A stretch of 64,000 nucleotides of DNA. Origin: Pseudomonas sp. GGS8. Its GTDB lineage: Bacteria > Pseudomonadota > Gammaproteobacteria > Pseudomonadales > Pseudomonadaceae. Positions 45,322 through 64,000 of the stretch are shown piece after piece (the stretch's first letter is position 1; the number at the start of each line of letters is the position of its first letter). A program made the position numbers and the translations under genes. The stretch lies in assembly GCF_024168645.1 (NCBI RefSeq), contig NZ_JALJWF010000001.1:3165501-3229500 (forward strand). Reading direction: 5' to 3'. Under the pieces are notes generated by a model. It did no database searches, was not told the origin of the DNA, and was given only the letters and a program-made list of their open reading frames with translations.

Positions 45322-46056
45322 ATGCAAAAACGCAATGTTTCTACCGTCTTAAGAGCGCTGCTCGATCAGCACGGGATCTCCCCCACGGAGCTTCACCGTC
45401 GCACCGGCGTGCCTCAATCCACTCTCTCGCGCATCCTCAGCGGGAAGATCGTCGATCCTTCGGATAAACATATCTCGAAGATTGCCGAATACTTTTCTGT
45501 GAGCACCGATCAGTTGCGGGGCCGCGCGGATGTCGCGCCGGCCGCCAGCGCCGGGCGCGATGAATTGCATTCGGAGCTCAAGGACATAAGCCTGTGGGAC
45601 GACGATACGCCTGTCGATGACGACGAGGTATCTGTCCCCTTTCTTCGCGAGGTTGAATTGGCTGCTGGATCAGGAAGATTCGTCATCGAAGAGAGCGAGC
45701 GCTCTAGCCTGCGCTTCGGCAAGCGCAGCTTGCGCCACAACGGTGTGCAGTTCGACCAGGCCAAATGCGTGACCGTGCGTGGCAACAGCATGTTGCCGGT
45801 ACTGCGCGACGGCGCCACGGTGGGGGTGAATGCCGGTAAATGCGGGATTGGCGACATCATCGACGGCGACCTGTACGCCATCAACCACAACGGCCAGTTG
45901 CGGGTGAAACAGCTTTATCGCCTGCCTACCGGGATTCGCCTGCGCAGCTTCAATCGCGATGAGCATCCGGATGAGGACTACAGCTTCCAGGAAATCCAGG
46001 AAGAGCAAATCGTCATCCTTGGTCACGTCTTCTGGTGGGGCATGTACGCCCGCTAA
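45322..46056 (+). CDS. LexA/CI-like SOS-cleavable repressor (PrtR-type) of the tailocin locus
   Basis: 244 residues. N-terminal XRE HTH (about 5-60: ISPTELHRRTGVPQSTLSRI). An acidic linker follows, then an S24 (LexA-type) peptidase domain with the probable self-cleavage bond A115-G116 in ELAAGSG, nucleophile S156 in RGNSMLPVL and base K196 in LRVKQLY. By analogy with PrtR and lambda CI, RecA filaments formed after DNA damage trigger self-cleavage and release the tail genes. The start at 45322 was chosen because likely operators lie just upstream; longer frames (45148 or 45229) would place them in the coding sequence. Ribosome site is weak. It is divergent from mutS and followed by a terminator. 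Confidence 0.85.
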   Translation: MQKRNVSTVLRALLDQHGISPTELHRRTGVPQSTLSRILSGKIVDPSDKHISKIAEYFSVSTDQLRGRADVAPAASAGRDELHSELKDISLWDDDTPVDDDEVSVPFLREVELAAGSGRFVIEESERSSLRFGKRSLRHNGVQFDQAKCVTVRGNSMLPVLRDGATVGVNAGKCGIGDIIDGDLYAINHNGQLRVKQLYRLPTGIRLRSFNRDEHPDEDYSFQEIQEEQIVILGHVFWWGMYAR

Positions 46057-46073
46057 CCTCACCGCTGTCAGAT

Positions 46074-46101
46074 AAAACCCGTCGCCCGACGGGTTTTTTT
46101 T
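46074..46101 (+). terminator. Intrinsic terminator of the repressor gene
   Basis: AAACCCGTC-GCCC-GACGGG followed by eight T, 18 bases after the stop. It separates the repressor transcript from the tailocin promoter 90 bases further on. Confidence 0.9.
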
Positions 46102-46152
46102 CGCCTGCCGAAAACCGCCAACGCCTTTGTCTGTGGGCCTTTCATGCGCCTG

Positions 46153-46216
46153 TGCATTTTCAATGCATAAACAAATGCATTTATGCATTGACTGTATATG
46201 CATACATGCATATTCT
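46153..46216 (+). promoter_or_regulatory. Tailocin promoter with three-operator array
   Basis: Core promoter: TTGACT (46188-46193), 17-base spacer, TATTCT (46211-46216). Three palindromes of the form TGCAT-n-ATGCA overlap it: 46153-46167 (5-base centre), 46176-46187 (2-base centre) and 46199-46210 (2-base centre, wholly in the spacer). Their centres are about 21.5 and 23 bases apart, roughly two helical turns. This is the layout expected for cooperative binding of a CI/LexA-like dimer. The spacer also holds CTGTATATGCATACAT (46192-46207), one base from a LexA box CTG-N10-CAG. Confidence 0.75.
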
Positions 46217-46566
46217 TTGTCTCAAGCCGCTCAACAAAGCGGCTCGAAACGAAGCTCTTTAGTTCCACCACAAAGGCAGCGATGAACCGGCCTCAACGGT
46301 TCAGAGGGTTGGCAACTGACCCGGGTGTGCAGCGTAAAGCACCAGAAGCAGTTATCCGGCGGGCAGGGACCGCGGTCGGAAAAACAATTTGAATCGATCC
46401 GTACCGCGCCAGTAGCGCCGAAAGATCACGCAAGCGCATTACTGAAAAGCCTGGGTGACCGGGCTTTTTGGAATGCCTGCCTACATCAGGCATATCAACC
46501 CTCATCCGGGACCGTAATTCCAGCAAACCGCTGTGCAATCCATTCATTCGACTCAATAGGTAAAAC
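46217..46566 (+). promoter_or_regulatory. Structured leader of the tailocin transcript
   Basis: About 345 bases separate the promoter from the first large gene. The region has several hairpins: AAGCCGCT/AGCGGCT (46223-46245), GAACCG/CGGTTC (about 46285-46305), GGGT...ACCC next to it, and a terminator-like stem AAAAGCC-TGGGTGACC-GGGCTTTT followed by a T at 46445-46468. A 36-codon ORF lies inside (see separate entry). The layout suggests attenuation or antitermination, but no known riboswitch or antiterminator was recognised. No PrtN activator gene is present in this gap. Confidence 0.45.
46282..46392 (+). CDS. Short ORF in the tailocin leader (possible leader peptide)
   Basis: 36 codons, ATG at 46282 preceded by AAAGG 8 bases upstream, ending TGA at 46392. 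The product is basic (about nine Arg/Lys) and has no recognised domain (MNRPQRFRGLATDPGVQRKA...). It overlaps the leader hairpins, so its translation could influence the downstream terminator-like stem. It may equally be chance. Confidence 0.3.
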   Translation: MNRPQRFRGLATDPGVQRKAPEAVIRRAGTAVGKTI

Positions 46567-47148
46567 ATGAACGTATTCAACAAAATCATTGGCCCGCTGA
46601 TGCTGACCATGGCTCTGTCCGGCGCTGCGGGCAGCGCTACTGCCGCAAACCTCCTGGTCAACGGCAGCTTTGAACAACCGGGTTGCAGCGACAGTTGCAT
46701 TCTGGACACGACGGCGAAAGCCAACTTCATCACCGGCTGGACGACCTTTCTGTCGGGCGCCGAATACTTCAACGTGCGCGCCTCGATTCCAGGCTCCGCC
46801 GCAGCGGAAGGCGCGGTGATTGTCGATCTGGCTAACAATATTTATGGCAACGGCGGCGGCATTCAGCAGAATTTCGCCACCGTAGTAGGGGCCAAGTATC
46901 GATTGACCTTCAGCCTGGGCAATTCGGTGTACGCCAGCCGCTCCGGTGATGGTGTCGTGCAAGTGAAGGTCGCCGGTCAGACCGCCACCTTCAACACGCC
47001 AACGGTCAAGGGTAGCGTTGTCGAGTGGAACACTGTGACTTATGACTTCACTGCGACCACGGCCCAAACCACTCTGGCCTTTTCCAATGAGCAGAACCCA
47101 TACGTCAACTTCGCTTTCATCGACAACGTGATCGTTGAAAAGCTGTAG
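46567..47148 (+). CDS. Secreted DUF642-like (galactose-binding-fold) protein
   Basis: 193 residues. A Sec signal peptide covers about residues 1-27 (KIIGPLMLTMALSGAAGSATA, cut before ANLLVNGSFE). The mature start NLLVNGSFEQPG and the pattern ending FAFIDNVIVEKL are typical of the DUF642/choice-of-anchor jelly-roll family, which binds carbohydrate in plants and bacteria. One Cys pair (CSDSC) may form a disulphide. No PEP-CTERM or other anchor is seen. It is the first large gene after the SOS-type promoter and lies just before the holin, which is unusual for a tailocin locus. Role unknown: it could bind glycans on the target, or be a passenger gene. Confidence 0.7.
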   Translation: MNVFNKIIGPLMLTMALSGAAGSATAANLLVNGSFEQPGCSDSCILDTTAKANFITGWTTFLSGAEYFNVRASIPGSAAAEGAVIVDLANNIYGNGGGIQQNFATVVGAKYRLTFSLGNSVYASRSGDGVVQVKVAGQTATFNTPTVKGSVVEWNTVTYDFTATTAQTTLAFSNEQNPYVNFAFIDNVIVEKL

Positions 47149-47218
47149 TTCTTCATCGATCAAAACCAGGCGGCTCATTTTCGAGAGGCCCATCTCATCG
47201 ATCCCAAGGAGGCGGGAC

Positions 47219-47569
47219 ATGACAAACGAGCAACAAGCGTTGCTGGACATGCCGATCTGGCTGGTCATCCTCCTCGCGGTGGCGGGCGGGGTGTCCGGCG
47301 AAATGTGGCGCGCCGACAAGGAGGGCGCCCGTGGCTGGTCGCTGTTGCGGCGCCTGGCCCTGCGGTCCGGAGCCTGCATGATCTGCGGGGTCTCGGCAAT
47401 CATGCTGCTGTACGCCGCCGGCTTGTCGATCTGGGCCGCCGGTGCCTTTGGCTGCCTGACGGCGATGGCGGGGGCGGACGTGGCCATCGGGCTTTACGAA
47501 CGCTGGGCCGCCAAGCGGATTGGCGTTTGCGAAGTGCCACCGCGCGATTCTCGTCCCGATCAACAGTGA
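47219..47569 (+). CDS. Tailocin holin
   Basis: 116 residues with an N-terminal hydrophobic helix (PIWLVILLAVAGGVSGEMW, about 11-29) and two closely spaced helices (about 50-95: CMICGVSAIMLLYAAGLSIW and AAGAFGCLTAMAGADVAIG), then a charged tail. Position and topology match the holin that opens R-pyocin clusters (PA0614 in P. aeruginosa, recalled). The start at 47219 has GGAGGCGGG 6-8 bases upstream. It would open the inner membrane to an endolysin at the end of induction. No endolysin is seen in this window. Confidence 0.8.
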   Translation: MTNEQQALLDMPIWLVILLAVAGGVSGEMWRADKEGARGWSLLRRLALRSGACMICGVSAIMLLYAAGLSIWAAGAFGCLTAMAGADVAIGLYERWAAKRIGVCEVPPRDSRPDQQ

Positions 47570-47616
47570 GCCGGCGTCGCTGATCTTCGCATTGCTATAG
47601 GAACAGGAGGCCATTA

Positions 47617-48129
47617 ATGCCCGCCGCTATCGAAAAACCATCGCAGGTGCTTTCCGCCATTGCCGAGACGTTGCGCAGCGCCATCCCCGGTTTGAACGTC
47701 GGGACTCATCAAGACTTCGACGGCATCGTCGATCAGCCCTGGGTGTTGATCGCCATCGAGCGAGATGCGCCGGGCATCCGGGCCAACGACGGACGTATCG
47801 CTCATGTCCTGACGGTTTCCTTGCAAGCCGTGTTGCCCGGCGCAGGGTTGGCGGCGTGCGATCTGGCCAGTGAGTTGAAAAGCCTGGTCGTCGATAACCG
47901 CTGGAAACTGCCGGGCGAGCAATGCGATCTGCCGATGAACATTGAGGGCATCCCGTCCACGTTCATTAGCGAGGCACGGGAGTACACCGCCTGGACCGTT
48001 TCATTTACCCAAACCCTGTACCTCGGCCCGACGCTGCTCGAAGACCCGTTGGGCATCCCGAAATTCGCCCGTACCTGGGAAGTGTCGAACATCGACGACC
48101 CGGATCAATACACCGCACTTGAGGGTTGA
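47617..48129 (+). CDS. Conserved R-type tailocin protein upstream of baseplate V (PA0615-like)
   Basis: 170 residues. By position (holin, this gene, gpV, gpW, gpJ) it corresponds to the uncharacterised gene PA0615 of the R-pyocin cluster. Visible features are the N-terminal helix EKPSQVLSAIAETLRSAIPGL, a beta-rich middle (PWVLIAIERDAPG, HVLTVSLQAVLPG) and the C-terminal segment AWTVSFTQTLYLG. The pattern resembles tail terminator/completion proteins of phage tails (gpU/gp37-like folds), so a role in ending the tail tube is possible. An AACAGGAGG site lies 8 bases upstream. Function is inferred from context. Confidence 0.65.
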   Translation: MPAAIEKPSQVLSAIAETLRSAIPGLNVGTHQDFDGIVDQPWVLIAIERDAPGIRANDGRIAHVLTVSLQAVLPGAGLAACDLASELKSLVVDNRWKLPGEQCDLPMNIEGIPSTFISEAREYTAWTVSFTQTLYLGPTLLEDPLGIPKFARTWEVSNIDDPDQYTALEG

Positions 48130-48132
48130 CCC

Positions 48133-48744
48133 ATGTTTGATGCGCTTTTACGTATGCAATTGGGGCCGATCATCGAGCGTCTGGCCGAGATGGAAACCGA
48201 ACTCGAAGACCTGCACCGGCGTGCCGACAGTTTTTGTCGCATCGGCATGTGTCAGGAAGTCGATGCGGCCAGCAATACCTGCAAGGTCCGTCATGGGGAA
48301 CTGCTCACCCCGGCGATCCGGTTTTTCAACCCAAGCGCTGGCGCACAGAGCGAGTCGCGGATTCCTTCCGTGGGGGAGCAGTGTTTGTTGCTGAACCACG
48401 GCGGCGGCGAGGGCGGCGGGCAGTCGGTGGCGTTGTTCGGCCTCAACGGCGGTCAGTTTCCGCCCGTCTCGACGCAGGCATCGCTGACGCGTCGCCTCTA
48501 TCAGGACGGCACGGAAAACGGTTACGACGACGCCAGTCATGTCCTGCACTGGAAGAACGGCCCGGCGGCGTTCACCGGTTCCCGTGAATCCCTCGAGTTG
48601 AACATCGGCCCGGCACGACTGGCGATGACGCCTGAGGCCATCGAATTGCAACTGGGCGCCGTCGGCCTGCGGCTCGACGCCTCCGGTGTGCATCTGAGCG
48701 GCCCATTGGTGGATCACCAGGGTCGCGTCATCAGTACCGCATAA
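48133..48744 (+). CDS. Baseplate assembly protein V (central spike)
   Basis: 203 residues, P2 gpV-like. The N-terminal helical segment (RMQLGPIIERLAEMETELED) is followed by an OB-fold domain (RIGMCQEVDAASNTCKVRHG, VGEQCLLLNHGGGEGGG) and a C-terminal beta-helix with repeated LxLxxxxxxLxxxG elements (SLELNIGPARLAMTPEAIEL...), which forms the membrane-piercing tip. The family's terminal HxH iron site is represented at best by LVDHQGRV, so the apex may differ. It starts 3 bases after the preceding gene and is followed by gpW. Confidence 0.88.
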   Translation: MFDALLRMQLGPIIERLAEMETELEDLHRRADSFCRIGMCQEVDAASNTCKVRHGELLTPAIRFFNPSAGAQSESRIPSVGEQCLLLNHGGGEGGGQSVALFGLNGGQFPPVSTQASLTRRLYQDGTENGYDDASHVLHWKNGPAAFTGSRESLELNIGPARLAMTPEAIELQLGAVGLRLDASGVHLSGPLVDHQGRVISTA

Positions 48745-48754
48745 AGAGCTCCCC

Positions 48755-49087
48755 ATGATCGGAATCGATAGAAACACCGGCGCGACGGTCGACGACTGGC
48801 AGCAGTTTGTGCAGCGCGCCACCCGAGCCCTGACCACGCCGTTAGGCACGCGTCAAAAGCGCCCTTTGTATGGCTGCGCACTCACTGAATTGCTGGGGCA
48901 GAACCTCGGCGACGACCTGCTGATTCTCGCCCAGAGTCATGCGGCCCAAGCGTTTTACAACAAGTACAACGGCATCGACGATTTCGAGCCGCAGGTCATT
49001 GTGGCCAGCCGCTACGGTGCCGGGTTGTTGTTGCGTTTCGCCGGCACCTGGAAAAACCGCCAACAGACCTTCGAGGTGGTGGCATGA
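48755..49087 (+). CDS. Baseplate wedge protein W (gp25-like)
   Basis: 110 residues, P2 gpW/T4 gp25 family. It sits at the sheath-baseplate junction and starts sheath polymerisation. The motif TPLGTRQKRPLYGCALTELL includes the conserved PxGxR near the N-terminus. It overlaps gpJ by 4 bases (ATGA). Length is typical. Confidence 0.92.
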   Translation: MIGIDRNTGATVDDWQQFVQRATRALTTPLGTRQKRPLYGCALTELLGQNLGDDLLILAQSHAAQAFYNKYNGIDDFEPQVIVASRYGAGLLLRFAGTWKNRQQTFEVVA

Positions 49088-50079
49088 GTATGTTGATACC
49101 TGGCCAGAACCAGTTGGCCGAACCGACCATCGTCACAGTCGAAGCGTTCGAGGATCTGCTCGCAGAGTTCAAGACTTTCGTCGTCGAGTACGTCGGTGCC
49201 CGTGCTCCCGAGAGCGCGGCCAAGCTTGTGGTCAGCCTGGAAAACGAAAGCGAGTTGCTGACCCTGGCCCTTGAGGCGTTTTGTGTACGGCTGCAAACCC
49301 ACGAACGCAAATACAACGCCCGCATCAAGCAGATGCTGGCGTGGTGGGCCACCGGCACCAACCTCGATGCGCGGCTGGCGGACATGGGGCTTGAGCGCCA
49401 GTTGCTGGACCCGGGCGATCCGGCGGCATTCCCGCCGATCGATCCGGTCTACGAGAGCGATGACGACGCCCGGTTGCGTTATTACCTGGCGCCGCATGCC
49501 CCGGCGGCGGGCTCGCGGATGCAGTATCGGCGCGAGATTTTCACCCTTGGCGAACGGCCTGTCGTGAAGGTGGAAACCACCGCGGCGGGTGTGGTGACGG
49601 TCACTTACACCTTCGACCCGGACGGCTATGTCGCACAGGTCAAGGACGGCAACGGGCGCCGGACCGCGCCAGGCGAAGTCACGGTTACGGTGCTTTCCCG
49701 AGAGGGCGACGGCACGCCATCCCAAGCGCTGCTCGACGGTGTTCGCCAACATTTCGCCCGGCCTGATGTCCGGCCCGAAACGGACCTGGTTACCGTGCAG
49801 GCTGCGCAAATCAAGAACTACAAAATCCGGGTGATCGCGAAGATCAATCCGGGTCCCGATTCAGGGCTCACCAAAGTCGCCGCGCAACAGCAGTTGCAGG
49901 CGTACGCCGATGCCTGTCATCGCCTGGAAGGGCGGGTGGACCCGAGCTGGATCGACTACACGCTGCACAGCGCTGGCGCGGTTCAACTGCAAATCCTTGA
50001 GCCGGTCGCGCCGATTGTCACGAGCGTTTTTCAAGCGCCGTATTGCACGGGCGTCGAGGTCGAGGTGGACACGTTATGA
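49084..50079 (+). CDS. Baseplate wedge protein J
   Basis: 331 residues, P2 gpJ / T4 gp6-like. It forms the outer ring of the baseplate. The central region APAAGSRMQYRREIFTLGE and the YTFDPDGYVAQVKDGNGRRT insertion fit the Baseplate_J domain, and the C-terminal part (ITSVFQAPYCTGVEVEVDTL) is the usual end. It is coupled to gpW and gpI by 4-base overlaps. Confidence 0.92.
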   Translation: MSMLIPGQNQLAEPTIVTVEAFEDLLAEFKTFVVEYVGARAPESAAKLVVSLENESELLTLALEAFCVRLQTHERKYNARIKQMLAWWATGTNLDARLADMGLERQLLDPGDPAAFPPIDPVYESDDDARLRYYLAPHAPAAGSRMQYRREIFTLGERPVVKVETTAAGVVTVTYTFDPDGYVAQVKDGNGRRTAPGEVTVTVLSREGDGTPSQALLDGVRQHFARPDVRPETDLVTVQAAQIKNYKIRVIAKINPGPDSGLTKVAAQQQLQAYADACHRLEGRVDPSWIDYTLHSAGAVQLQILEPVAPIVTSVFQAPYCTGVEVEVDTL

Positions 50080-50711
50080 GTGACGACATACCTCGCCCGA
50101 GCCTGTTGCCAGCCAACAGCTCTCCACTGGAAAGGGCACTTGATCTCGGTTTCGCCCGGTTGCTTGAGCGCATTGACCCGCCGTTCCCCGAGCTGATGAA
50201 CCCCGCCGAAACACCGCTGGCATTCTTGCCGTATCTGGGCGCGGATCGCGGGGTCGGCGAATGGAGCTCCGAGGCAGCCGAGTCTGAAAAACGTTTGACG
50301 GTAGAACTCGCCTGGCCCACCGCACGGCAGGCCGGGACGCGAAAAGCACTGGAAAACGCGGCCAAGGGTTTGCAATTGATGCCCGAGGTGCGCGCCTGGT
50401 ACGAGCAAACACCACCCGGCCCGCCTTACAGCTTTTCCGTCAGGGCCTTCACCGAACAGCCCTACAGCGAAGCAATCGACGCCCGTCTCGATCGACGCCT
50501 GGCCGATGCCAAAAGCGAACGTGACACCTTGACGGTTTCTGTTGGCTTGAGCGCATTCGGCAGTCACGTCATCGGCGCCGCCACCGTCTGCGGCGAGCTG
50601 ACCACGGTTTATCCGATCGTCGTCGAAGGACTTGAAGCCTCGGGTCAGGCCTTCATGGCCGCCGGGCTCTACACCGTCGAAACCTCCACTATTTATCCTC
50701 AGGGGTCCTAA
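50076..50711 (+). CDS. Baseplate/tail protein I
   Basis: 211 residues, P2 gpI-like. It joins J in the wedge and links to the fibres. Typical block: ALDLGFARLLERIDPPFPEL followed by NPAETPLAFLPYLGADRGV. The start at 50076 (MSDDIPRPSLLPAN) overlaps the gpJ stop as ATGA; a longer frame from 50043 would lie inside gpJ. The fibre gene starts at the next base after its stop. Confidence 0.92.
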   Translation: MSDDIPRPSLLPANSSPLERALDLGFARLLERIDPPFPELMNPAETPLAFLPYLGADRGVGEWSSEAAESEKRLTVELAWPTARQAGTRKALENAAKGLQLMPEVRAWYEQTPPGPPYSFSVRAFTEQPYSEAIDARLDRRLADAKSERDTLTVSVGLSAFGSHVIGAATVCGELTTVYPIVVEGLEASGQAFMAAGLYTVETSTIYPQGS

Positions 50712-52613
50712 ATGGCCGACTATTACACCCTGCTCACCAATGCGGGGATCGCCTACGAAACCGCCTGCAAGGCAGCGGGCACACCGATCAAACTGTCGCA
50801 GATTTCCGTCGGGGACGGCGGCGGCGCGGTTTACAACCCGGCTGCCACTGCCACGGCACTGAAACGCGAAGTGTGGCGCGGGCCACTCAATGCACTGTTC
50901 CAGGATGAGAAAAACCCGAGCTGGCTGCTGGCCGAAGTGACTATCCCGCCTGAAGTGGGCGGCTGGTATGTGCGTGAGGCTGGGATCTGGACTGATACCG
51001 GGATTCTGTATGCGATCGTCAAATATCCGGAGTCGTTCAAGCCGGTGCTGGCGACTTCAGGGTCGGGGAAAGAGTTTTACATTCGTTCGATTTTCGAGAC
51101 CAGTAATGCGGCGTTGGTGACGTTGTTGATTGACGACACTGTGGTCAAGGCGACGCGTGCGTGGGTGATGAGTTACCTCGCTGAAGAACTCGGCAAACTC
51201 GACGGCAAGCAGTCGGTGCGGGTTGCCGCTGCTGCTAACGTGGTGTTGAACGGTGCTCAGCAGATTGACGGTGTTGCGGTAGTGGCGGGGGATCGGGTGT
51301 TGTTGCCGAACCAGACGCTGGCCAAAGACAACGGCTTGTGGGTGGTTAGCAATGGCAACTGGGTTCGGACAAGCGATGCCAGCACCAGTGCGAAAGTTAC
51401 TCCAGCCCTGACTGTGATGGTCGAAGAGGGCACGGTGAATGGTGATTCGCTGTGGCACCTGACCACCAACGGGCCGATTACCCTGGGCACGACGGCGCTG
51501 ACGTTTGAGATGTTGGCCGGGCGGACGGGGATTCAGCCGGGGACTTATAAGAGTCTGACTGTGGATAAGTACGGTCGGGCAACCGGCGGTTCGAATCCTG
51601 AAACGTTAGCCGGGTTTGGTATCAAGGACACGTACACCAAGGCTGAAATCGAGGCGATGATTGCCGAGGCTTCGGCGCTTCCGGTTGGCGCGATGGTGCC
51701 GTTTCCTTTGAATAAAGTCCCGCCGGGGTTTCTTGAGATTGATGGCAGTGTGAAGAGCATTGCGGTCTATCCGGATCTGGCAGCGTTCCTCGGCACGGTA
51801 TTCAACAAGGGGGATGAGGGGGCCGGTAATTTCCGTTTGCCTGAATCGCGCGGTGAGTTTTTGCGTGGTTGGGACCATGGGCGCGGTATTGATGCTGGCC
51901 GGGCGATTGGTAGTTGGCAGAAAGGTACGATGGTTAGCGCTGATACCACTGGCTCAGGTGATGGATCTACAGTCATCGGCCTCGGTGCAGCCGCCGCACT
52001 GCCTCTGGCGAGTTACGGTGTCGATCCTATCGCTCTTGCAGACTACCCGTCGCAGGTTACAGCTCTCTCAAGTGCTGCGACTGCGGCAAGCAATGTGGCG
52101 GTGAGTGGCTCGACTCGACCTCGAAACTTGGCGGTCATGTGGTGCATCAAGGCCTGGAATGCGCCGATCAATCAGGGAAACATCGATATCGCCGCGCTGG
52201 CTGCGTTGGCTGCTCCCGCTACTGAAACCAATCAGGGTACGGCCAAGGTCGCTACACAGAATCAGGCGGATGTCGGAACCGATGACACGACCTTTATCAC
52301 GCCTAAAAAAATGCGTTGGGGAATTACGGCCAACCTTAACGCTAACGGCTACATCATTTTCCCGACGTGGATGTTCAGCTTCATTATCCAGTGGACCACT
52401 GTCGGTAATATTCCAGCGGGTGCATCAGGGTCTGTTGCCTGGCCTATTGCTTTCCGAGCTGCGTGTCTTTTTGGGGGGGCTTGTCCTGTTGGGGTAGCCT
52501 CTAACAATTCGGCGGGAAATATCGTGCCCGGTGCCGTTTCAACCACGGGTATCAATTTATATAACTGGGGGGTGATTAGCGCGTCTTCCCGGGCATGGGG
52601 GTTTGGAGTTTGA
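50712..52613 (+). CDS. Tail fibre (receptor-binding) protein
   Basis: 633 residues; it decides which strains the particle kills. The N-terminal phage-collar fibre domain that docks to the baseplate covers about residues 1-155. A shaft follows with a phage module around AVVAGDRVLLPNQTLAKDNG (about 195) and the VDKYGRATGG repeat. A phage tail-collar domain lies at about 323-480 (LPVGAMVPFPLNKVPPGFLEIDG). The C-terminal domain, from about residue 546 (GYIIFPTWMFSFIIQW...), resembles gp53-type receptor-binding tips. From about 51050 on, the DNA is visibly richer in T and in rarer codons than the baseplate genes, as expected for exchangeable specificity segments. Confidence 0.92.
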   Translation: MADYYTLLTNAGIAYETACKAAGTPIKLSQISVGDGGGAVYNPAATATALKREVWRGPLNALFQDEKNPSWLLAEVTIPPEVGGWYVREAGIWTDTGILYAIVKYPESFKPVLATSGSGKEFYIRSIFETSNAALVTLLIDDTVVKATRAWVMSYLAEELGKLDGKQSVRVAAAANVVLNGAQQIDGVAVVAGDRVLLPNQTLAKDNGLWVVSNGNWVRTSDASTSAKVTPALTVMVEEGTVNGDSLWHLTTNGPITLGTTALTFEMLAGRTGIQPGTYKSLTVDKYGRATGGSNPETLAGFGIKDTYTKAEIEAMIAEASALPVGAMVPFPLNKVPPGFLEIDGSVKSIAVYPDLAAFLGTVFNKGDEGAGNFRLPESRGEFLRGWDHGRGIDAGRAIGSWQKGTMVSADTTGSGDGSTVIGLGAAAALPLASYGVDPIALADYPSQVTALSSAATAASNVAVSGSTRPRNLAVMWCIKAWNAPINQGNIDIAALAALAAPATETNQGTAKVATQNQADVGTDDTTFITPKKMRWGITANLNANGYIIFPTWMFSFIIQWTTVGNIPAGASGSVAWPIAFRAACLFGGACPVGVASNNSAGNIVPGAVSTTGINLYNWGVISASSRAWGFGV

Positions 52614-52615
52614 AC

Positions 52616-53038: not shown

Positions 53039-53070
53039 ACGCCCCGCACCGCCGGGGCGTTTTCTTTTCC
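53037..53070 (+). terminator. Intrinsic terminator between fibre chaperone and sheath genes
   Basis: AACGCCCCG-CACCGC-CGGGGCGTT followed by TTCTTTT, starting at the chaperone stop codon. It divides the tail operon in the middle. Confidence 0.88.
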
Positions 53071-53080
53071 TCAACACCTG

Positions 53081-53107
53081 AAAGTCCCTTCCTCAAGGGG
53101 CTTTTTT
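53081..53107 (+). terminator. Second hairpin upstream of the sheath operon
   Basis: AAAGTCCCTT-CCTC-AAGGGGCTTT followed by TTT. A weaker second stem 11 bases after the first. Together they would strongly reduce readthrough into the sheath genes unless antiterminated. Confidence 0.6.
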
Positions 53108-53126
53108 CATTTCTGGAGAAACCCAA

Positions 53127-53336: not shown

Positions 53337-53338
53337 CC

Positions 53339-55140: not shown

Positions 55141-55205
55141 GTTGCACACCTTGACTGACCGGCATTGCGCAACACCTCCCCATGATCCACCAAGGAATTC
55201 ATTTC

Positions 55206-55909: not shown

Positions 55910-55915
55910 AGCGGG

Positions 55916-58431: not shown

Positions 58432-58636
58432 GGTTCGAAGTATCGCCGGTGACTCGGTAAATCTGTTGCTCTACCGCGAGCTTGAACGTTGTGACGATGC
58501 CACCGAGGAAGCCCTTTGGCGTCTTAATCCGGGGCTTGCCGAATGGGGGCCGATATTGCCGGCGGGCGTGTGGGTTGTGCTGCCGGAAGTGGATTCGAAA
58601 CCCGTCGCACCCACACCGGTTTCGGCCTGGGATTAA
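58424..58636 (+). CDS. Tail protein X (LysM-like)
   Basis: 70 residues, P2 gpX-like. It contains the short pattern GDSVNLLLYRELERCDDATE followed by LWRLNPGLAEWGPILPAGVWVVLPE, a minimal LysM-like fold that joins tube and baseplate hub. Followed 9 bases later by gpD, with AAGGAGGCAG before the next ATG. Confidence 0.92.
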   Translation: MRRVRSIAGDSVNLLLYRELERCDDATEEALWRLNPGLAEWGPILPAGVWVVLPEVDSKPVAPTPVSAWD

Positions 58637-58645
58637 GGAGGCAGC

Positions 58646-59662
58646 ATGTCACTGGGTTTCACGCCTGCGGTAGAAATTTACGGCGCAAACGCTGCGCTGC
58701 TCAACGAACGATTGCTCAGTTGGACGCACATCGACGCAGCGGGGATCGAGTCAGATCAACTGACGCTCCTCATCAGTCTGGATGGGCTTGAAGGGTTGCC
58801 CAGCCTGGGCGGGAAAATCGGTCTGCGGGTCGGTTATCTGGAGTCGGGGCTGGTGGATAAAGGCGAGTTCGTCATTACCCGACGCACGCCGACGCTGTTC
58901 CCTCTGCGTCTGACGCTGGTGGCCACGGCGGCGCCGTTCAGTGCGGCGGATCAGACCGGATTCAAACAGCGCCGATCGGCCAGCCATGGTCCGACGACCT
59001 TGGGTGCGCTGTTTCGTCAGTTGACGTCCAGGCATGGGTTTTCCCCTCGTGTGGCCCCGGACCTGTCACTGATAAAAATCGCGCACATCGACCAGTCCAA
59101 CGAAACCGACATGGGTTTTCTGACGCGACTGGCCTACTTGCATGACGCCGTCGCCAAACCGGTCAACGAGCTGTATGTGCTGGCACGGCGCGGTCAGGCG
59201 AAGTCGTTATCGGGCAAAGTTCTGCCGACCATAAAGCTGTCGGTGACGACGAACAATCGCCCAGGGGATCACGCCTTTATCTCCGCCGTTCTGGATGAAA
59301 CTGCCCGGGCGAAATACCAGGGCTGCAAGACCAGCTGGTGGGATGCGGCGGCCGGCAAAGTGCGTGTCGAGGAGAGCGGCATCGCGCCATTCAAGACCCT
59401 CCGCCAGCGTTTTCAGAGCGCAGACGATGCCCGGGCCGCCGCCGAAGGCGAGACCCGCCGGATGATGCGCGAAGCACTCAAGGTGACGATCGAATGCCCC
59501 GGCAATCCGGGACTGTCTGCTGAAGGGATCGTGCTGCTGGACCCTACCTGGCCGGATTTCATGCGCGGTCGTTGGTCGATCGACAAGGTCACCGCCAGCG
59601 GCGACCGGGAAAAAAGCTATCGCTGCAAGATTGACGCGACCTGCCTGGACGCTAGGGCATAA
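58646..59662 (+). CDS. Baseplate hub protein D (late control D family)
   Basis: 338 residues, P2 gpD/T4 gp27-like hub that connects the spike V to the tube. Blocks: SLGFTPAVEIYGANAALLNE at the start, the linker KIAHIDQSNETDMGFLTRLA, and WSIDKVTASGDREKSYRCKI near the end. In the R-pyocin locus the next genes are the endolysin and Rz-type spanins; here a REP pair and a second tail cluster follow. Confidence 0.93.
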   Translation: MSLGFTPAVEIYGANAALLNERLLSWTHIDAAGIESDQLTLLISLDGLEGLPSLGGKIGLRVGYLESGLVDKGEFVITRRTPTLFPLRLTLVATAAPFSAADQTGFKQRRSASHGPTTLGALFRQLTSRHGFSPRVAPDLSLIKIAHIDQSNETDMGFLTRLAYLHDAVAKPVNELYVLARRGQAKSLSGKVLPTIKLSVTTNNRPGDHAFISAVLDETARAKYQGCKTSWWDAAAGKVRVEESGIAPFKTLRQRFQSADDARAAAEGETRRMMREALKVTIECPGNPGLSAEGIVLLDPTWPDFMRGRWSIDKVTASGDREKSYRCKIDATCLDARA

Positions 59663-59675
59663 CGCACATCCCCTT

Positions 59676-59765
59676 GTGGGAGCGGGCTTGCCCGCGAAGA
59701 CGGTAGCACATTCAACATCAATGTTGCCTGACCCACCGCTATCGCGGGCAAGCCCGCTCCCACAG
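59676..59765. repeat. REP pair at the junction of the two tailocin clusters
   Basis: GTGGGAGCGGGCTTGCCCGC at 59676 and its exact inverted copy GCGGGCAAGCCCGCTCCCAC ending at 59763, about 48 bases apart. It fills the only gap (59663-59799) between gpD and the Mu-like cluster. No promoter was evident there. Confidence 0.9.
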
Positions 59766-59799
59766 GTTCAATCGCACCCCCAAATGTCGGAGCACCTCG

Positions 59800-60384
59800 A
59801 TGAAGATCACACCGATCCTCACGCAGCTGCGTGAGCAATGCCCAACCCTGGCCAATCGTGTGGCGGCGGGCATTGACCTCGCCACCCTGCAAGCCAACAC
59901 CCCGCTCACCACGCCTTGCGCCTACGTCGTCCCCATCGCCGATGTGGCGAGCAAAAGCGTGGCGCAAAACCTGATGCTGCAACCGATCCGCGACCGCTTC
60001 GAAATCACCCTGGTGCTCGACACCTCGGACGCCGTTGCAGCGCTGGATCAACTGCACGATTTACGCGCCGAACTATGGCGCGCACTGGTGGGTTTCAAGC
60101 CCGGCAACGACTACAGCGCCATCGCCTATGACGGCGGCGAAGTGGTTTCCATCAACAGCAGCCGCGTGCTCTATCGCCTGCGCTTTTTCGCCGAATTCCA
60201 GCTCGGCCGCAATCTGCCGGGGCAACCGGCGCAGAGCTGGCACGAGCGTGAACTGGACGGCTTGTCGTCCTTTACCGGGGTCACCGTACGGGTCGATGCG
60301 ATCGATCCGGCGGACCCCAATCTGCAACGCCCAGGCCCCGACGGGCGCCTGGAACTGACTTTCTCTGGAGACGTAACCCCATGA
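59800..60384 (+). CDS. Mu gp37-like tail protein (second tailocin)
   Basis: 194 residues. It resembles the Mu gp37 family by position (before the sheath) and by the blocks ANTPLTTPCAYVVPIADVAS and RFEITLVLDTSDAVAALDQL. It is probably a tail-completion or tail-terminator protein. It has AGCACC but no strong ribosome site upstream. It overlaps the following DUF2635 gene by 4 bases. Codon use matches the first cluster and the host. Confidence 0.75.
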   Translation: MKITPILTQLREQCPTLANRVAAGIDLATLQANTPLTTPCAYVVPIADVASKSVAQNLMLQPIRDRFEITLVLDTSDAVAALDQLHDLRAELWRALVGFKPGNDYSAIAYDGGEVVSINSSRVLYRLRFFAEFQLGRNLPGQPAQSWHERELDGLSSFTGVTVRVDAIDPADPNLQRPGPDGRLELTFSGDVTP

Positions 60385-60563
60385 GCAAACGCATCACCGT
60401 GCTGCCGGCCCCGGGCCGTGCCGTGCCGGACCCGGAAGCGGGCGATTTGTTGCCCTTCGAGGGCCGTGAAGTGCCGGACAACGCCTGGTGGCGTCGACGT
60501 CTGGCCGATGGCGATATCACTATCAAAGCCGTGAAAGCGGCGAAACCACAGGGAGCCAAATAA
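60381..60563 (+). CDS. DUF2635 family small tail protein
   Basis: 60 residues. The pattern RITVLPAPGRAVPDPEAG...LPFEGREVPDNAWWRRRLADGD is the DUF2635 family (Mu gp38-like), which always sits before Mu-type sheath genes. Role unknown. It overlaps its neighbours by 4 bases (ATGA) and 1 base (TAATG). Confidence 0.85.
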   Translation: MSKRITVLPAPGRAVPDPEAGDLLPFEGREVPDNAWWRRRLADGDITIKAVKAAKPQGAK

Positions 60564-62059
60564 TGGCGATCGGATTCAGCAACATCCCCGCGGACATTCG
60601 TGTTCCGCTGTTCTATGCCGAAATGGACAACTCGGCCGCCAATAGCGCGTCGTCGGCCATGCGCCGCCTGATCGTCGCTCAGGTCAACGACAACATTGCG
60701 CCAGCCGATGCCGGCAAACTGGTGTTGGTGTCCAGCGTGGCGCTGGCCAAAAGTATTGGCGGCCAGGGCTCGATGCTCGCCTCGATGTACGAAACCTGGC
60801 GCAAGACCGATCCGATCGGCGAGATCTGGTGCCTGCCGCTGCACAACACCGAAGGCAGCATTGCCAAAGGCGTGCTGACCCTGACCGGTGCCGCGACCCA
60901 AAGTGGCGTGCTCAACCTGTACGTCGGCGGCGTTCGCGTTCAGGCGGCCATCGTCAACGGCGCCACCGCGGCGCAAGCGGCCACCGCCCTGGCACTGAAA
61001 ATCAACGCCAGCGCCGATCTGCCAGTCATTGCGGCGGCGGCCGAAGGTGTGGTCACCCTGAGCGCCAAATGGACTGGCGACAGCGGCAACGACATCAGCC
61101 TGCAATTCAATCGCCTGGGCAAGAGCAACGGCGAAGAAACCCCGGCCGGCCTGACCTCGGCGATCACCGCCATGACCGGCGGCGCCGGTGTGCCGGATCA
61201 AGTGGCCGCCGTGGCGGCGCTGGGCGATGAACCGTTCGAGTTCATCTGCATGCCGTGGTCGGATCTGTCGACCCTCAACACCTGGCAAGCGGTCATGGAT
61301 GACAGCACCGGTCGTTGGTCCTGGGCCAAGCAATTGTTCGGTCACGTCTACAGCGCCAAACGCGGCACCGTCGGTACGCTGGTGGCGGCAGGGCAAGCGC
61401 GTAACGACCAGCACATGACCATTCAGGCGCTGGAACCGGGCGTGCCGCAACCGTTCTGGGTGCAGGCTGCCGCATTGGCCGCGCGCACTTCGGTGTTCAT
61501 CTCGGCCGATGCCAGCCGTCCGACCCAAAGCGGCAGCCTGCCAGGTCTCGACCCGGCTCCGGCGAGCGAGCGGTTCACCCTGACCGAGCGTCAGTCGCTG
61601 CTCAACTACGGCATCGCCACCGCGTACTACGAAGGCGGCTACGTGCGCATTCAGCGTTCGATCACCACCTATCAGAAGAACGCCTACGGCCAGGCAGACA
61701 ATTCCTACCTGGACAGCGAAACCATGCACCAGTCGGCGTTCATCGTGCGTCGTCTGCAAAGCGTGATCACCAGCAAATACGGTCGCCACAAACTGGCCTC
61801 CGACGGCACCCGTTTCGGCGCCGGCCAGCCAATCGTTACCCCGAGCACCCTTCGCGGTGAGCTGATCGCCCAGTACGCCAAGCTCGAACTGGAAGGCCAT
61901 GTGGAAAACGCCGAGCTGTTCGCCGAACACCTGATCGTCGAGCGCGACACCCAGGACCCGAGCCGGGTCAACGTGCTGTTCCCGCCGGACTACATCAACG
62001 GTCTGCGCGTGTTCGCGCTGCTCAACCAGTTCCGTCTGCAGTACGACGACGCAGCCTGA
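60563..62059 (+). CDS. Contractile tail sheath protein (Mu gpL-like, second tailocin)
   Basis: 498 residues. It shares the general sheath design but is Mu gpL-like: N-terminus IGFSNIPADIRVPLFYAEMD, an inserted domain (GSIAKGVLTLTGAATQSGVL...), and the C-terminal block ELIAQYAKLELEGHVENAEL. This is a sheath of different lineage from the P2-like one at 53339. The start at 60563 overlaps the DUF2635 stop. A hairpin terminator follows 27 bases after its stop, before the tube gene. Confidence 0.94.
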   Translation: MAIGFSNIPADIRVPLFYAEMDNSAANSASSAMRRLIVAQVNDNIAPADAGKLVLVSSVALAKSIGGQGSMLASMYETWRKTDPIGEIWCLPLHNTEGSIAKGVLTLTGAATQSGVLNLYVGGVRVQAAIVNGATAAQAATALALKINASADLPVIAAAAEGVVTLSAKWTGDSGNDISLQFNRLGKSNGEETPAGLTSAITAMTGGAGVPDQVAAVAALGDEPFEFICMPWSDLSTLNTWQAVMDDSTGRWSWAKQLFGHVYSAKRGTVGTLVAAGQARNDQHMTIQALEPGVPQPFWVQAAALAARTSVFISADASRPTQSGSLPGLDPAPASERFTLTERQSLLNYGIATAYYEGGYVRIQRSITTYQKNAYGQADNSYLDSETMHQSAFIVRRLQSVITSKYGRHKLASDGTRFGAGQPIVTPSTLRGELIAQYAKLELEGHVENAELFAEHLIVERDTQDPSRVNVLFPPDYINGLRVFALLNQFRLQYDDAA

Positions 62060-62085
62060 TCGCTGCCTCTGACTGTGTGAATTCG

Positions 62086-62107
62086 GCCCACCGCGCGTGG
62101 GCTTTTT
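62086..62107 (+). terminator. Terminator-like hairpin between sheath and tube (second tailocin)
   Basis: GCCCAC-CGCGC-GTGGGC followed by TTTTT. A perfect 6-base GC stem with U run, 20 bases before the tube start codon. Confidence 0.8.
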
Positions 62108-62126
62108 ATTTGAAGGGAGAAACACC

Positions 62127-62474
62127 ATGGGTCAACTGATTGCGGGCACCTGCTACGTCAAAGTGGACGGTGCTCAACTGACCATCAACGGTGGCTGCGA
62201 AGCACCATTGATGGCCGTTAAACGGGAAACCGTCGTGCCGGGCTTCTACAAGGAAACCGACATCGCGCCGTCGTTCAAAGTGACGGCGCTGCACACCGCG
62301 GACTTCCCGCTCAAGCAACTGATCGCAGGCTCCGACATGACCGTCACCTGCGAATTCAGCAACGGTAAAGTCTACGTACTGGCCGGCGCCTATCTGGTGG
62401 AAGAGCCGGTATCCAAAGGCGATGACGCCACCATCGAACTGAAATTCGAAGGCATCAAGGGGACCTGGCAATGA
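62127..62474 (+). CDS. Tail tube protein (Mu gpM-like, second tailocin)
   Basis: 115 residues, Phage_tail_tube/gpM family. Typical features are GTCYVKVDGAQLTINGGCEA near the start and AGAYLVEEPVSKGDDATIEL at the end. AAGGGAGA ribosome site 8 bases upstream; an in-frame ATG at 62097 lies in the terminator loop side and is rejected. It overlaps the next gene by 4 bases. Shorter than, and unlike, the first tube (168 residues). Confidence 0.92.
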   Translation: MGQLIAGTCYVKVDGAQLTINGGCEAPLMAVKRETVVPGFYKETDIAPSFKVTALHTADFPLKQLIAGSDMTVTCEFSNGKVYVLAGAYLVEEPVSKGDDATIELKFEGIKGTWQ

Positions 62475-62767
62475 GCAACGCCGTGAAGCTTCAAGTTGCG
62501 ATCGAAGCCCACGGCGAGCCCTTGACCGAGCTCAACCTGCGCCGTCCGACGGTGCAGGAAGTGCGGGCGATCAAGGCGTTGCCGTACAAGATCGACAAGA
62601 GCGAAGAGGTCAGCCTCGACATGGACGTCGCGGCCAAATACATCGCCGTGTGCGCCGGCATCCCGCCGTCGTCGGTCAACCAGCTGGATCTGGCTGACCT
62701 CAATACGCTGAGTTGGGCGGTCGCGAGTTTTTTCATGAGTGCGGCGTCGGCGCCATCACCGACCTGA
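62471..62767 (+). CDS. Tail assembly chaperone, zero-frame product (Mu gp41-like)
   Basis: 98 residues, phage tail E / gp41 family (LQVAIEAHGEPLTELNLRRP, EVRAIKALPYKIDKSEEVSL). It overlaps the tube gene by 4 bases. The slippery run T TTT TTC occurs 11 codons before the stop, and the -1 frame continues for about 54 codons to the tape-measure start. Confidence 0.88.
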   Translation: MSNAVKLQVAIEAHGEPLTELNLRRPTVQEVRAIKALPYKIDKSEEVSLDMDVAAKYIAVCAGIPPSSVNQLDLADLNTLSWAVASFFMSAASAPSPT

Positions 62768-62898
62768 TCGCAGTCGCCTATGACCTGGCCTGGTTCTGGA
62801 AGGTTGACCCCGAACAGATGATGGCCAGGCCACTGGATGTGCTCCGCGAATCGCTGGAGCACGCGCAACGGATCAATGCGATGCAGCAGGTGCAGTGA
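62471..62898 (+). CDS. Tail assembly chaperone, -1 frameshift product (Mu gp41/gp41'-like)
   Basis: About 142 residues if the ribosome slips at 62728-62734: ...LSWAVASFF then HECGVGAITDLIAVAYDLAW...HAQRINAMQQVQ. The extension overlaps nothing else and its stop (TGA 62896-62898) shares a base with the tape-measure ATG, as expected for a translated frame. Frameshifting here is established for Mu and many other tailed phages. Confidence 0.85.
62728..62734 (+). other. Programmed -1 ribosomal frameshift site (second tailocin)
   Basis: Zero frame reads AGT TTT TTC ATG. The heptamer T TTT TTC is a canonical X XXY YYZ slippery site, followed by GC-rich sequence (GCGGCGTCGGCGCC) able to form a stem. 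Confidence 0.82.
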
Positions 62899-64000
62899 TG
62901 GCAGACACACAAACCAAAGAGAAAACATCGGTGCTGCTCACGGGCATCGATGAACTGTCGCCCAAGCTCGGTGCCCTTCGGGCAAAAGTCGAGAGTTTCA
63001 AGAAAAACCTGGAGCAGACCGGCCTCGGCAAACTGGACATCAGCGGTCTGTTTAAGGGCGGTAGCGTGATCACGCCGTTCGTGGATGCAATCAAGGTGTC
63101 CGACGCGTTCAAGGGCAAATTGGCCGAAGTCAGTGAATCGGCCGAAGGTGTTGATTTGCCGAAAGCGCCAGTGAGCGCTACGCAAAACATGAATGTGTTC
63201 AGTCGCTCGATGGAGCAGGTATCGATCGCGGCCAACACGGCCTTGCAGCCTGCTGTTGCGACCGTAACGGCAGGTCTTCAACCTTTGTTGGTTGGATTTG
63301 GCAGCCTGCTCGATGACAACCCGAAATTGGTCGAGGGGTTGGCGGCCGGTGCCATCGCATTTTCGGCAATGCAAACGGCTGTGACTGGCGCGACGCAAGT
63401 GTTTGATCTGATGAGCATGGTGCTCAAGACCAATCCCATCATGCTGATTGCCATGGGCATTGCCATGGCGGCCGGTGTGATCATTGCCAACTGGGAGCCG
63501 ATTTCGACGTTTTTCGCCGGGCTCTGGCAAAAGATTGTCGGATATTGGGCGCCGATCAGCGGCGTTTTCTCGGCAATTTTTGATCAAGTCAAAGCAGTCG
63601 TGAGTGCAGGATTCGACTTCCTCAAGGCGTGGTTTGCCTGGACGCCCTACGGAATGATCTTGAACAACTGGGGGGCCGTTGTCGGTTTGTTTGCGGCGAT
63701 CTGGGATCTGCTCGTGGCGCTGACCGTGCCGGTGAAGGAGAAACTGCGCAGCCTGTTCGACTGGGTGCCGCTGGACGCCATTGCCGCGGCTTGGGATCAG
63801 GTGCCTGCCATGTTCTCGGGCTACTGGGAGTCAATCAAGCTTGGAGCGCAGGCGTTCTTTTCTTACCTCAGCGGCCTGTTCACTTGGTCGCCCTTGGACG
63901 CACTGAGCGAAACATGGGCATCTGTGGTTCAGTTTTTCAGTGAAAAAACGGAAAAGCTCCGGGCCATTCTGGCGCCCATCCAGGAGATGCTGGGCGGTAG
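62898..64000 (+). CDS. Tail tape measure protein (second tailocin), cut by the window end
   Basis: At least 367 residues, with no stop before the window ends. The N-terminal region is a coiled-coil-like helix (SPKLGALRAKVESFKKNLEQ). A hydrophobic stretch (MLIAMGIAMAAGVIIANW, about 175-195) follows, then repeating units with a Trp-Pro signature: NWEPISTFFAGLW, YWAPISGVFSAIF, FAWTPYGMILNNW, FDWVPLDAIAAAW and FTWSPLDALSETW. Such repeats are typical of Mu-type tape measures (gp42). The ATG overlaps the preceding stop by one base. Confidence 0.9.
   Translation, partial: MADTQTKEKTSVLLTGIDELSPKLGALRAKVESFKKNLEQTGLGKLDISGLFKGGSVITPFVDAIKVSDAFKGKLAEVSESAEGVDLPKAPVSATQNMNVFSRSMEQVSIAANTALQPAVATVTAGLQPLLVGFGSLLDDNPKLVEGLAAGAIAFSAMQTAVTGATQVFDLMSMVLKTNPIMLIAMGIAMAAGVIIANWEPISTFFAGLWQKIVGYWAPISGVFSAIFDQVKAVVSAGFDFLKAWFAWTPYGMILNNWGAVVGLFAAIWDLLVALTVPVKEKLRSLFDWVPLDAIAAAWDQVPAMFSGYWESIKLGAQAFFSYLSGLFTWSPLDALSETWASVVQFFSEKTEKLRAILAPIQEMLGG

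Follow-up and report, generated by a model that had tools for sequence, protein, structure and literature searches.

A conserved, structured leader RNA stands behind the single promoter of a Pseudomonas locus in which two contractile tail sets of different ancestry lie in tandem. The leader behind a tailocin promoter is new here; the tandem arrangement itself is already known, since an R-tailocin locus of this kind near mutS has been published for P. protegens CHA0 (PMC7815802, in excerpt), as the earlier note had said of multi-tailocin loci in the P. fluorescens group. We lean towards a reading in which the locus is one inducible unit whose leader acts in cis, by antitermination like that of put RNA, on one transcript of about 25 kb.

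Two contractile tail sets stand in one locus with a single regulator, promoter and set of lysis genes

The window is the whole 64,000-nucleotide stretch of Pseudomonas sp. GGS8 that was analysed; coordinates past 64000 continue its numbering, and adding 3165500 gives positions in the genome (C1). The locus lies between mutS and cinA/recA and contains the following features.

45322-46056, + strand: HTH and S24 peptidase repressor of cI/PrtR type (PF01381, PF00717)
46163-46216, + strand: promoter TTGACT-17-TATTCT within five ATGCAT boxes (sigma-70-like match at 46188-46216, and conservation)
46275-46385, + strand: leader RNA core with four hairpins and a probable pseudoknot (match to model R1 at 46275-46380)
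46386-46477, + strand: rest of the leader, a hairpin closed by GATC..GATC and then a terminal hairpin at 46436-46477
46567-47148, + strand: DUF642/choice-of-anchor C protein in a variable cargo slot (PF04862, phrog_18458, TIGR04362)
47219-47569, + strand: holin (PF16085, E 6e-55; the frame opens at 47135, the ATG at 47219 being the likelier start)
47617-48129, + strand: phrog_1072 protein
48133-59662, + strand: tail set 1, P2/R-pyocin type, by profile matches: gpV (PF04717), gpW (phrog_43), gpJ (PF04865), gpI (PF09684), fibre (PF12571), chaperone (PF16778), a phrog_6423 protein, sheath (phrog_23), tube (PF04985), E (PF10109), tape measure (PF10145), U (PF06995), X (PF05489), D (phrog_52)
53037-53112, + strand: two tandem intrinsic terminators ahead of sheath 1, T runs at 53062 and 53105
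59663-59799, no strand assigned: gene-free junction of the sets with a REP pair
59800-64000, on to 70490, + strand: tail set 2, Mu type, reaching the tape measure gene within the window, by profile matches: tail terminator (PF23840), DUF2635, sheath (PF04984), tube (PF10618), gp41-like (PF10109), tape measure (phrog_4200)
62085-62111, + strand: intrinsic terminator between sheath 2 and tube 2, present in 32 of 33 loci
70537-71103, + strand: GH19-type endolysin (profile match)
71085-71603, + strand: Rz with nested Rz1 (profile match)

By gene content this is an R-type (contractile) tailocin locus, predicted to make killing particles. Both sets carry sheath, tube, tape measure, baseplate and fibre genes, and no capsid, portal, terminase or integrase gene was found among the 33 scanned proteins of 45322-71603. 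The earlier note had claimed two tailocins of different ancestry in tandem, one in R-pyocin/P2 order and one Mu-like from 59800; the genes lie where it placed them, the families of set 1 agree gene by gene from V to D, and those of set 2 bear out the Mu-like assignment. The R-pyocin of P. aeruginosa has the same gene order as set 1. Neither the sheaths nor the tubes are copies of one another (no usable blastp match for either; E 0.37 and 4.3, respectively), whereas the two fibres have a collar region in common (E 3e-15). Past 64000, where the earlier note had expected the rest of the locus, we found open frames for gp43-, gp44-, gp45-, gp46-, gp47- and gp48-like genes and a fibre with a collar domain, followed in order by the endolysin, Rz/Rz1, cinA, recA and recX. 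We regard decay of set 2 to a remnant that yields no particle as very unlikely: its single fibre is short (382 residues), where multiple fibre pieces and chaperones are seen in most relatives, but its frames are open, matches other than that of the fibre cover >70% of length in most relatives, and two loci (G110 and G033) likewise have one fibre of the kind found in our set 2.

A single S24 repressor gene and a single promoter precede both sets; in EU982300 the gene at the equivalent place is annotated prtR. Of 14 ATGCAT boxes in 99.5 kb, five stand at 46163-46211, where they presumably serve as repressor operators, and none occurs from 46212 to 75424, hence there is no second cluster. The promoter call draws its weight from conservation, because the sigma-70-like scan of 45200-64000 on both strands gave one match (46188-46216) against 4.5 expected in shuffles, and the scan was dropped as stand-alone evidence. 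The cargo slot that follows the leader differs in content among loci, and the TIGR04362 match of its DUF642 protein falls under the curated cut-off.

The lysis genes are split, with the holin at the left end of the locus and the endolysin and Rz/Rz1 at the right. Thus the shared lysis cassette that the earlier note had placed beyond the window is there as regards endolysin and Rz/Rz1, but the holin lies within the window. In every locus that could be seen from end to end (41 of 41, ours among them) there are one or two tail sets and one full-length relative each of our regulator, holin and endolysin, counts from which an unrelated second regulator or lysis gene would escape; one locus (G039) additionally gives a partial match to the holin. 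Of these, the 15 tandem loci, again counting ours, all have one endolysin for both sets. A separate regulator or promoter, an endolysin for each set or a broken second set had been named beforehand as findings that would speak against the arrangement, and none was found, with promoters of sigma-70 type covered by the scan. This supports the earlier reading of shared control, with both sets probably on a shared transcript.

The junction holds no gene, and no regulator, holin, endolysin or sigma-70-type promoter, leaving only the REP pair, as the earlier note had it. The pair is not a special boundary, as it recurs at about 45 other places in the genome, one of them within set 2, and a fuzzy REP pattern is absent from three of 18 set 1-set 2 junctions. 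We think it quite improbable that set 2 is driven by a promoter of its own, lying for instance within gpD or the REP junction, with only the lysis genes shared. The pattern does part the sets in 15/18 junctions (the G048 instance looks by eye like a plain terminator), and promoter types other than sigma-70 fall outside the scan. However, from 46217 through the whole of the Mu-type fibre gene that scan picked up nothing promoter-like on the + strand, and short junctions of 51-73 nt occur (G048, G016, G082 and G029). Moreover, of the 12 loci that lack a P2-type first set, nine have a Mu-type set that begins at most 160 nt past the holin; the other three have a 1.9-kb gap (G074), 13.7 kb of unmapped sequence (G036) or a site not in view (G062).

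PrtN, the known activator of pyocins (PMC12796719, in part), appears to be missing from the control of this locus, as judged by profile. PF11112 had no match in our genome and matched in 54 of 119 genus genomes, a search that took the place of one with 14 control genomes that gave no matches anywhere. Comparison by eye of two result tables placed PrtN within 30 kb on the contig of 0/86 leader copies.

A conserved structured RNA is found in tailocins, phages and plasmids

The leader fold is stable (z -3.36) and supported by covariation. Across 38 diverse copies, 98.0% of 1026 cells were paired and both sides had changed in 15 of 27 pairs, giving a covariation score of 0.296; the score was 0.155 (sd 0.008) for shuffles and 0.02-0.07 after sliding. 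The pseudoknot, which would pair AACUG with CAGUU, is probable: its double changes are few (3 cells), and an extended H2 stem competes with it. DNA identity to our leader core averaged 97.5% (42 relatives), compared with 92.9% for recA (44 relatives) and 88.2% for the regulator gene (39 relatives). A coding role was rejected, the candidate frame being broken by indels (+2 in one copy, -1 in five). Rfam searches at E <= 1 and E <= 5 gave no covariance-model match, which rules out a known Rfam family; this is weak evidence of novelty because the HK022 early region also lacks an Rfam match.

The leader is present in 43 of 47 mapped loci; in the others the site lies beyond the sequence in view (G029, G062, G037) or the contig ends first (G067). 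Elsewhere, in phages, it is found next to repressor genes or downstream of them, and on P. syringae-group plasmids it occupies the head of type IV secretion operons, standing in pPla107-1 between cro and the operon. Among leader loci with tail genes downstream, 116/131 have a repressor match no more than 1.8 kb upstream; for the remaining 15, <900 nt of upstream sequence is available. Outside tailocins and type IV operons, 55/112 leader loci had no match to the query repressors. The matches listed in our search, which covered chiefly open-access literature and parts of its texts, contained no description of such a leader in tailocins, phages or plasmids.

A clear long terminal hairpin is seen in only part of the 38 diverse copies. 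In tailocin loci it closes with a T run, CCGGGCTTTTT, as it does in two viral contigs (L141 and L167), a feature that would suit an attenuator or riboswitch whose terminal hairpin halts transcription until a signal arrives. We give that idea little credence, because PseuP_224, two plasmids and two further copies (L115 and L170) keep a hairpin at this site with other letters and without the T run. PseuP_224 and the two plasmids likewise led us to reject the leader as a plain terminator.

Intrinsic terminators lie among the tail genes

The terminator between sheath 2 and tube 2 ends so close to tube 2 in our locus, 23 nt ahead of its start codon, that no promoter fits between them; therefore tube 2 must come from read-through. 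Where a stretch runs from holin to set 2, 7 of 10 loci have a terminator in it. Over the tail region of 42 loci we counted 129 terminators on the operon strand and 49 on the other, with little excess in the 12 loci that have set 1 only (20 and 11, G097 giving seven of the 20). For our own locus a loose scan gives eight on the operon strand, of which some are intragenic, and five on the other; a strict scan gives three and one. Only 1 of 18 set 1-set 2 junctions holds a terminator, and three phages have 0 or 1.

The leader may act in cis on RNA polymerase

Self-cleavage is established for S24/LexA-type repressors. In the model we propose, the repressor would hold the promoter at 46188-46216 until DNA damage led to its self-cleavage. 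RNA polymerase would then start near 46223 and make the structured leader (46275-46477) at once. The folded leader would most likely act in cis on the polymerase, like HK022 put RNA, so that terminators are ignored, a reading that builds on the conserved internal terminators. A single transcript of about 25 kb would run through the holin, set 1 with the terminators ahead of its sheath gene, the REP junction and set 2 with the terminator before tube 2, and end with the endolysin and Rz/Rz1. The outcome would be two particle types and one lysis event.

A different role for the leader, as a structured 5' end that stabilises a long mRNA or as a trans-acting RNA, with leaky terminators tuning protein ratios, strikes us as unlikely, though it deserves some weight. 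The stability of the fold would fit it, terminators could set sheath/tube ratios, and four plasmid type IV operons have the leader yet no terminators in their first 3.4-3.9 kb. Against it, the element adjoins regulator genes in the 11 annotated records examined and directly precedes a long operon in four plasmids, and the conserved terminator ahead of tube 2 leaves no space for a promoter.

Extending the antitermination reading, we suggest tentatively that tailocins, phages and conjugative plasmids of Pseudomonas share an RNA-only processive antitermination element, a counterpart of put with an unrelated, probably pseudoknotted fold. Such an element could explain how several tail sets can be stacked after a single promoter; it would also offer an alternative to activation by PrtN. 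The published accounts that we found, in the parts available, offer no explanation of how two unrelated tail sets, 25 kb together, are run from one switch; a conserved structured RNA at the operon head is a testable answer, and if correct it would show where tail modules may be gained or lost with control kept.

Comparison with known systems

P. chlororaphis 30-84, a name linked with Dorosky 2017, is reportedly a related system beside P. protegens CHA0. The CHA0 locus shares with ours the mutS-cinA/recA site, a PrtR-like regulator, two R-tailocins of separate prophage origin, and holin, endolysin and spanin genes, but is reported with two endolysins where we found one; the portions of that account available to us do not mention the leader RNA and internal terminators that are present here (PMC7815802). 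R-pyocins of P. aeruginosa likewise have lysis genes at the end. They also share an S24-type repressor, and differ in having PrtN, per the text available (PMC12796719); our locus has instead a leader RNA, and a second, Mu-type set ahead of the lysis genes.

HK022 put RNA resembles the leader by position only, as a cis RNA that opens a long operon and follows a promoter under repressor control, putR lying downstream of PR (PMC9378689, in part). The site of put action is the beta-prime zinc-binding domain of RNA polymerase. From sequence, the leader appears to have neither the fold nor the sequence of put: put is about 70 nt with two stem-loops (same source), whereas the core, about 105 nt long, has four hairpins plus a probable pseudoknot and is often followed by another, terminal hairpin, and model R1 did not match the HK022 early region (best E 5.4). 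The conAn RNA also stands at the start of conjugation operons, in Gram-positive plasmids, but these operons are described as rich in terminators, unlike the plasmid stretches here, and conAn requires the protein ConAn1, whereas no partner protein emerged for our leader; the hosts differ too (PMC8955417, excerpt). AlpA of P. aeruginosa likewise puts DNA-damage-induced lysis genes under the control of terminator read-through, but it is a protein and the element proposed here an RNA (PMC7969949, from the portion available). RNAs that work on RNA polymerase with no protein dedicated to the task are few, and the part of PMC8955417 available names two, put and EAR; if our reading holds, the leader would be a third, in three kinds of mobile element of Pseudomonas and relatives, and comparison among them could reveal rules of RNA-driven antitermination.

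Tail modules between constant locus ends

The window spans positions 3165501-3229500 in a single-contig genome of 6.72 Mb; numbering beyond 64000 is continued from it. The locus has the following layout.

Left flank, minus strand: mutS
45322-46056: S24/HTH repressor, to the right of mutS
46188-46216: promoter TTGACT-17-TATTCT, among five ATGCAT boxes (46163-46211), followed by the leader RNA
Next, in order: genes for a DUF642 protein, a holin and a phrog_1072 protein
After the phrog_1072 gene: set 1, in P2/R-pyocin gene order
137 nt: junction between sets 1 and 2
59800-70490: set 2, in Mu gene order
70537-71103: GH19-type endolysin, 3' of set 2
71085-71603: Rz, with an Rz1-like lipoprotein frame nested inside
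Right flank, in this order after Rz/Rz1: cinA, recA, recX

Gene content between mutS and cinA/recA bears out the tandem of two tail sets proposed in an earlier note. As it had held, the sheaths and tubes of the two sets are not copies, since neither pair gave a usable sequence match, and a REP pair lies in the 137-nt junction. The sequence beyond 64000, where it had suggested looking, continues set 2 to 70490 and then carries endolysin, Rz/Rz1 and cinA. Its prediction of a lysis cassette beyond the window was correct for endolysin and Rz/Rz1 at the right end but not for the holin, which lies at the left end, before set 1.

A second REP pair lies within set 2 (66679-66774), between the gp44- and gp45-like genes. 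In set 1 (55182-55909) and set 2 (62471-62898) alike, a second frame at -1 overlaps the chaperone gene, and T-rich runs occur around 55742 and 62728, an arrangement that we take to resemble the usual tail-chaperone frameshift. The genome also has a second endolysin homologue (C1 6188314-6188865; 66% identical, one TGA within the match), perhaps from another phage or tailocin region.

The tandem is real and already known as an arrangement: passages of PMC7815802 describe two distinct R-tailocins from two independent prophages between mutS and cinA/recA in P. protegens CHA0, together with holin, endolysins and spanins, this site as a tailocin hotspot across 25 genomes, and PrtR-like proteins encoded by the loci examined there. 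Passages of PMC8319346 report one to four tailocins in mutS-cinA clusters. The earlier note's statement that multi-tailocin loci occur near mutS agrees with both sources.

Sheath 2, sheath 1 and the endolysin served as queries against 119 genus genomes. Of 32 relatives with sheath 1 at ≥80% identity we took 30 (all but G035, in several contigs, and G063, where the contig ends), and of 37 with sheath 2 at ≥85% we took 33 (all but G035, G006, G070 and G078); 17 are common to both groups. The 46 loci fetched and our own were mapped with our own genes (47 in all; one, G037, was partly fetched). Both sets were present in 18 loci, own included, and set 1 alone in 13; set 2 lacked a recognised P2-type first set in 12 and followed a different P2-type set in 3. 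A single relative each of regulator, holin and endolysin was found in 41/41 loci with both ends visible (41 of the 47), a count that unrelated second genes would escape. The locus ends are thus constant, and the tail modules between them are gained and lost. One partial holin match, in G039, was excluded from the one-holin count. Two stretches without a match to our genes may hold further tail modules: in G036 (L075-L076), 13.7 kb separating the holin from set 2, and in G097 (L050-L051), 14 kb separating set 1 from the endolysin.

Between leader and holin (46478-47218) lies a cargo slot whose content varies among relatives. It is long in 19 loci, own included, and short in the remaining loci; long slots contain DUF642, a Com-like zinc-finger ORF, small tail-fibre-assembly-like ORFs or secreted proteins, the names other than DUF642 being assigned partly by eye.

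A conserved, structured leader RNA

The stretch that runs from the repressor stop to the following gene is better conserved than the surrounding genes. Mean DNA identity to our leader core (46275-46380) was 97.5% in 42 relatives, compared to 92.9% for recA (44 relatives), 89.2% for sheath 2 (32), 88.2% for the regulator (39) and 86.5% for the holin (43), after matches below 70% of query length were dropped. Across all 42 aligned sequences, 85 of 106 core positions were invariant. The leader folds better than shuffled sequences (z -3.36). After the promoter boxes, ATGCAT next occurs only at 75425.

From 163 distinct cores, 39 less than 93% alike were kept and L258, with a different 3' half, was dropped; the remaining 38 were aligned by sequence. 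The fold tested comprised four hairpins and a pseudoknot in which the loop of hairpin H2 (AACUG) pairs with CAGUU downstream. Pairing was present in 98.0% of 1026 cells, and 15 of 27 pairs changed on both sides, with at least one such pair in every hairpin and in the pseudoknot helix. The covariation score was 0.296 vs 0.155 (sd 0.008) in 500 shuffles and 0.02-0.07 in slid versions. The search pattern constrained the two outer pairs of hairpin H1 and one pyrimidine, leaving the remainder of its stem unconstrained. For the pseudoknot, both-side changes amount to 3 cells, with 4 cells unpaired, and RNAalifold favours a longer H2 stem instead; the AACUG/CAGUU pseudoknot is probable rather than proven.

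Indels of +2 and -1 break the candidate frame and rule out a coding role. Rfam gave no match at our leader (E ≤ 1) or at the element in five loci carrying it (E ≤ 5); this is no proof of novelty because the early region of phage HK022 likewise had no Rfam match. We found no description of the leader RNA in the literature searched.

The leader on tailocins, phages and plasmids

The leader is a real, structured RNA common to three kinds of mobile element. Its covariance model, R1, found one copy in our genome; of the 119 genus genomes, 70 were positive, with 86 copies in all. In larger samples, searched under stricter filters, 19 of 198 genomes of the family sample were positive, including four from three other genera; there were no matches in the order sample (144 other genomes) or the class sample (320 others), both with very few Pseudomonas. 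In a genome scan for the element, all 80 titled matches listed were Pseudomonas. The model also matched weakly (E 9e-7 to 4e-10) at G015:C1:869448 and G108:C1:2257365 and in G639, G678 and G657; these may be distant relatives and, if so, would broaden the structure model.

A blastn search of 50,697 phage records found the element in 11, and one of 72,556 plasmid records found it in 27; we examined 4 and 7 of these annotated records, respectively. EU982300 is the Q8r1-96 tailocin record, with prtR ahead of the element; the other three come from phages in which a cI- or repressor-type gene lies no more than ~1.2 kb away. Four plasmids carry the element directly at the head of an operon encoding a lytic transglycosylase, a small protein, VirB3 and a conjugal-transfer gene (VirB4 in one); in two of them cro immediately precedes the element and a divergent LexA-family gene is present, and in two an XRE gene precedes it. 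The other three plasmids are typed mobilizable; there a divergent HTH gene precedes the element, with an IS element within ~1.3 kb.

Among at least 246 loci from pattern scans, tail genes lay downstream in 131, a type IV operon in 3 and other genes in 112. A repressor match lay ≤1.8 kb upstream in 116 of the 131 listed tail-gene loci, the upstream sequence being too short in 15; the 112 others had a match in 51, none in 55 and incomplete sequence in 6. Nine upstream genes from these 55 loci were scanned, and five of them proved to be a DUF1654 neighbour. Some of the viral and genome loci (L110, L118, L160, L261) have the element next to an opposite-strand DUF1654 gene, in one such locus just ahead of a sigma-factor-like phrog_3282 gene.

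The pyocin activator family (PrtN, PF11112) was present in 54 of 119 genus genomes and was not found in our own. In tables compared by eye, none of the 86 leader copies had PrtN within 30 kb on the same contig; three (G033, G036, G067) had it 37-41 kb away. Where the Mu-type set is more distant (61-82% sheath identity), for example in G018, G092 and G050, PrtN lies within 7 kb, and these genomes have no leader. PrtN control and leader control therefore appear to be alternatives.

Internal terminators and predicted antitermination

On the operon strand of our locus a loose scan called 8 hairpin-plus-T signals, against 5 on the opposite strand; one follows the repressor gene and another falls in the operator region. 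The other clear ones are:

53062 and 53105, operon strand: before sheath 1
62104, operon strand: between sheath 2 and tube 2
70602: inside codons 1-25 of the endolysin frame

Under a strict rule, our locus had 3 on the operon strand and 1 opposite, and 42 loci (857 kb) had 129 vs 49, some within genes; set-1-only loci showed little excess. Terminators recurred at the junctions of sheath 2 and tube 2 (32/33), holin and set 2 (7/10) and fibre and phrog_6423 gene (14/20). They were rare between tube 1 and E (2/31), set 1 and set 2 (1/18) and set 1 and endolysin (1/12), and none was called between sheath 1 and tube 1 (0/31) or gp44 and gp45 (0/34). The sole sheath 2-tube 2 junction without a called terminator, in G044 (L089), holds a DUF642 gene. 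Tube 2 starts only 23 nt past its terminator, leaving no room for a promoter between them. The four plasmid operons had no terminator in the 3.4-3.9 kb scanned.

According to passages of PMC9378689, HK022 has its put RNA downstream of PL and PR, where it works in cis and needs no dedicated protein; passages of PMC8955417 place conAn at the head of conjugation operons rich in terminators. The position and fold of the leader and the terminators inside the operon fit this mode of action. The fold of the leader differs from that of the put family and, as far as R1 shows, sequence membership also fails; the HK022 early region had no match to R1. For the leader in tailocins, the likeliest function, and the one we infer, is antitermination.
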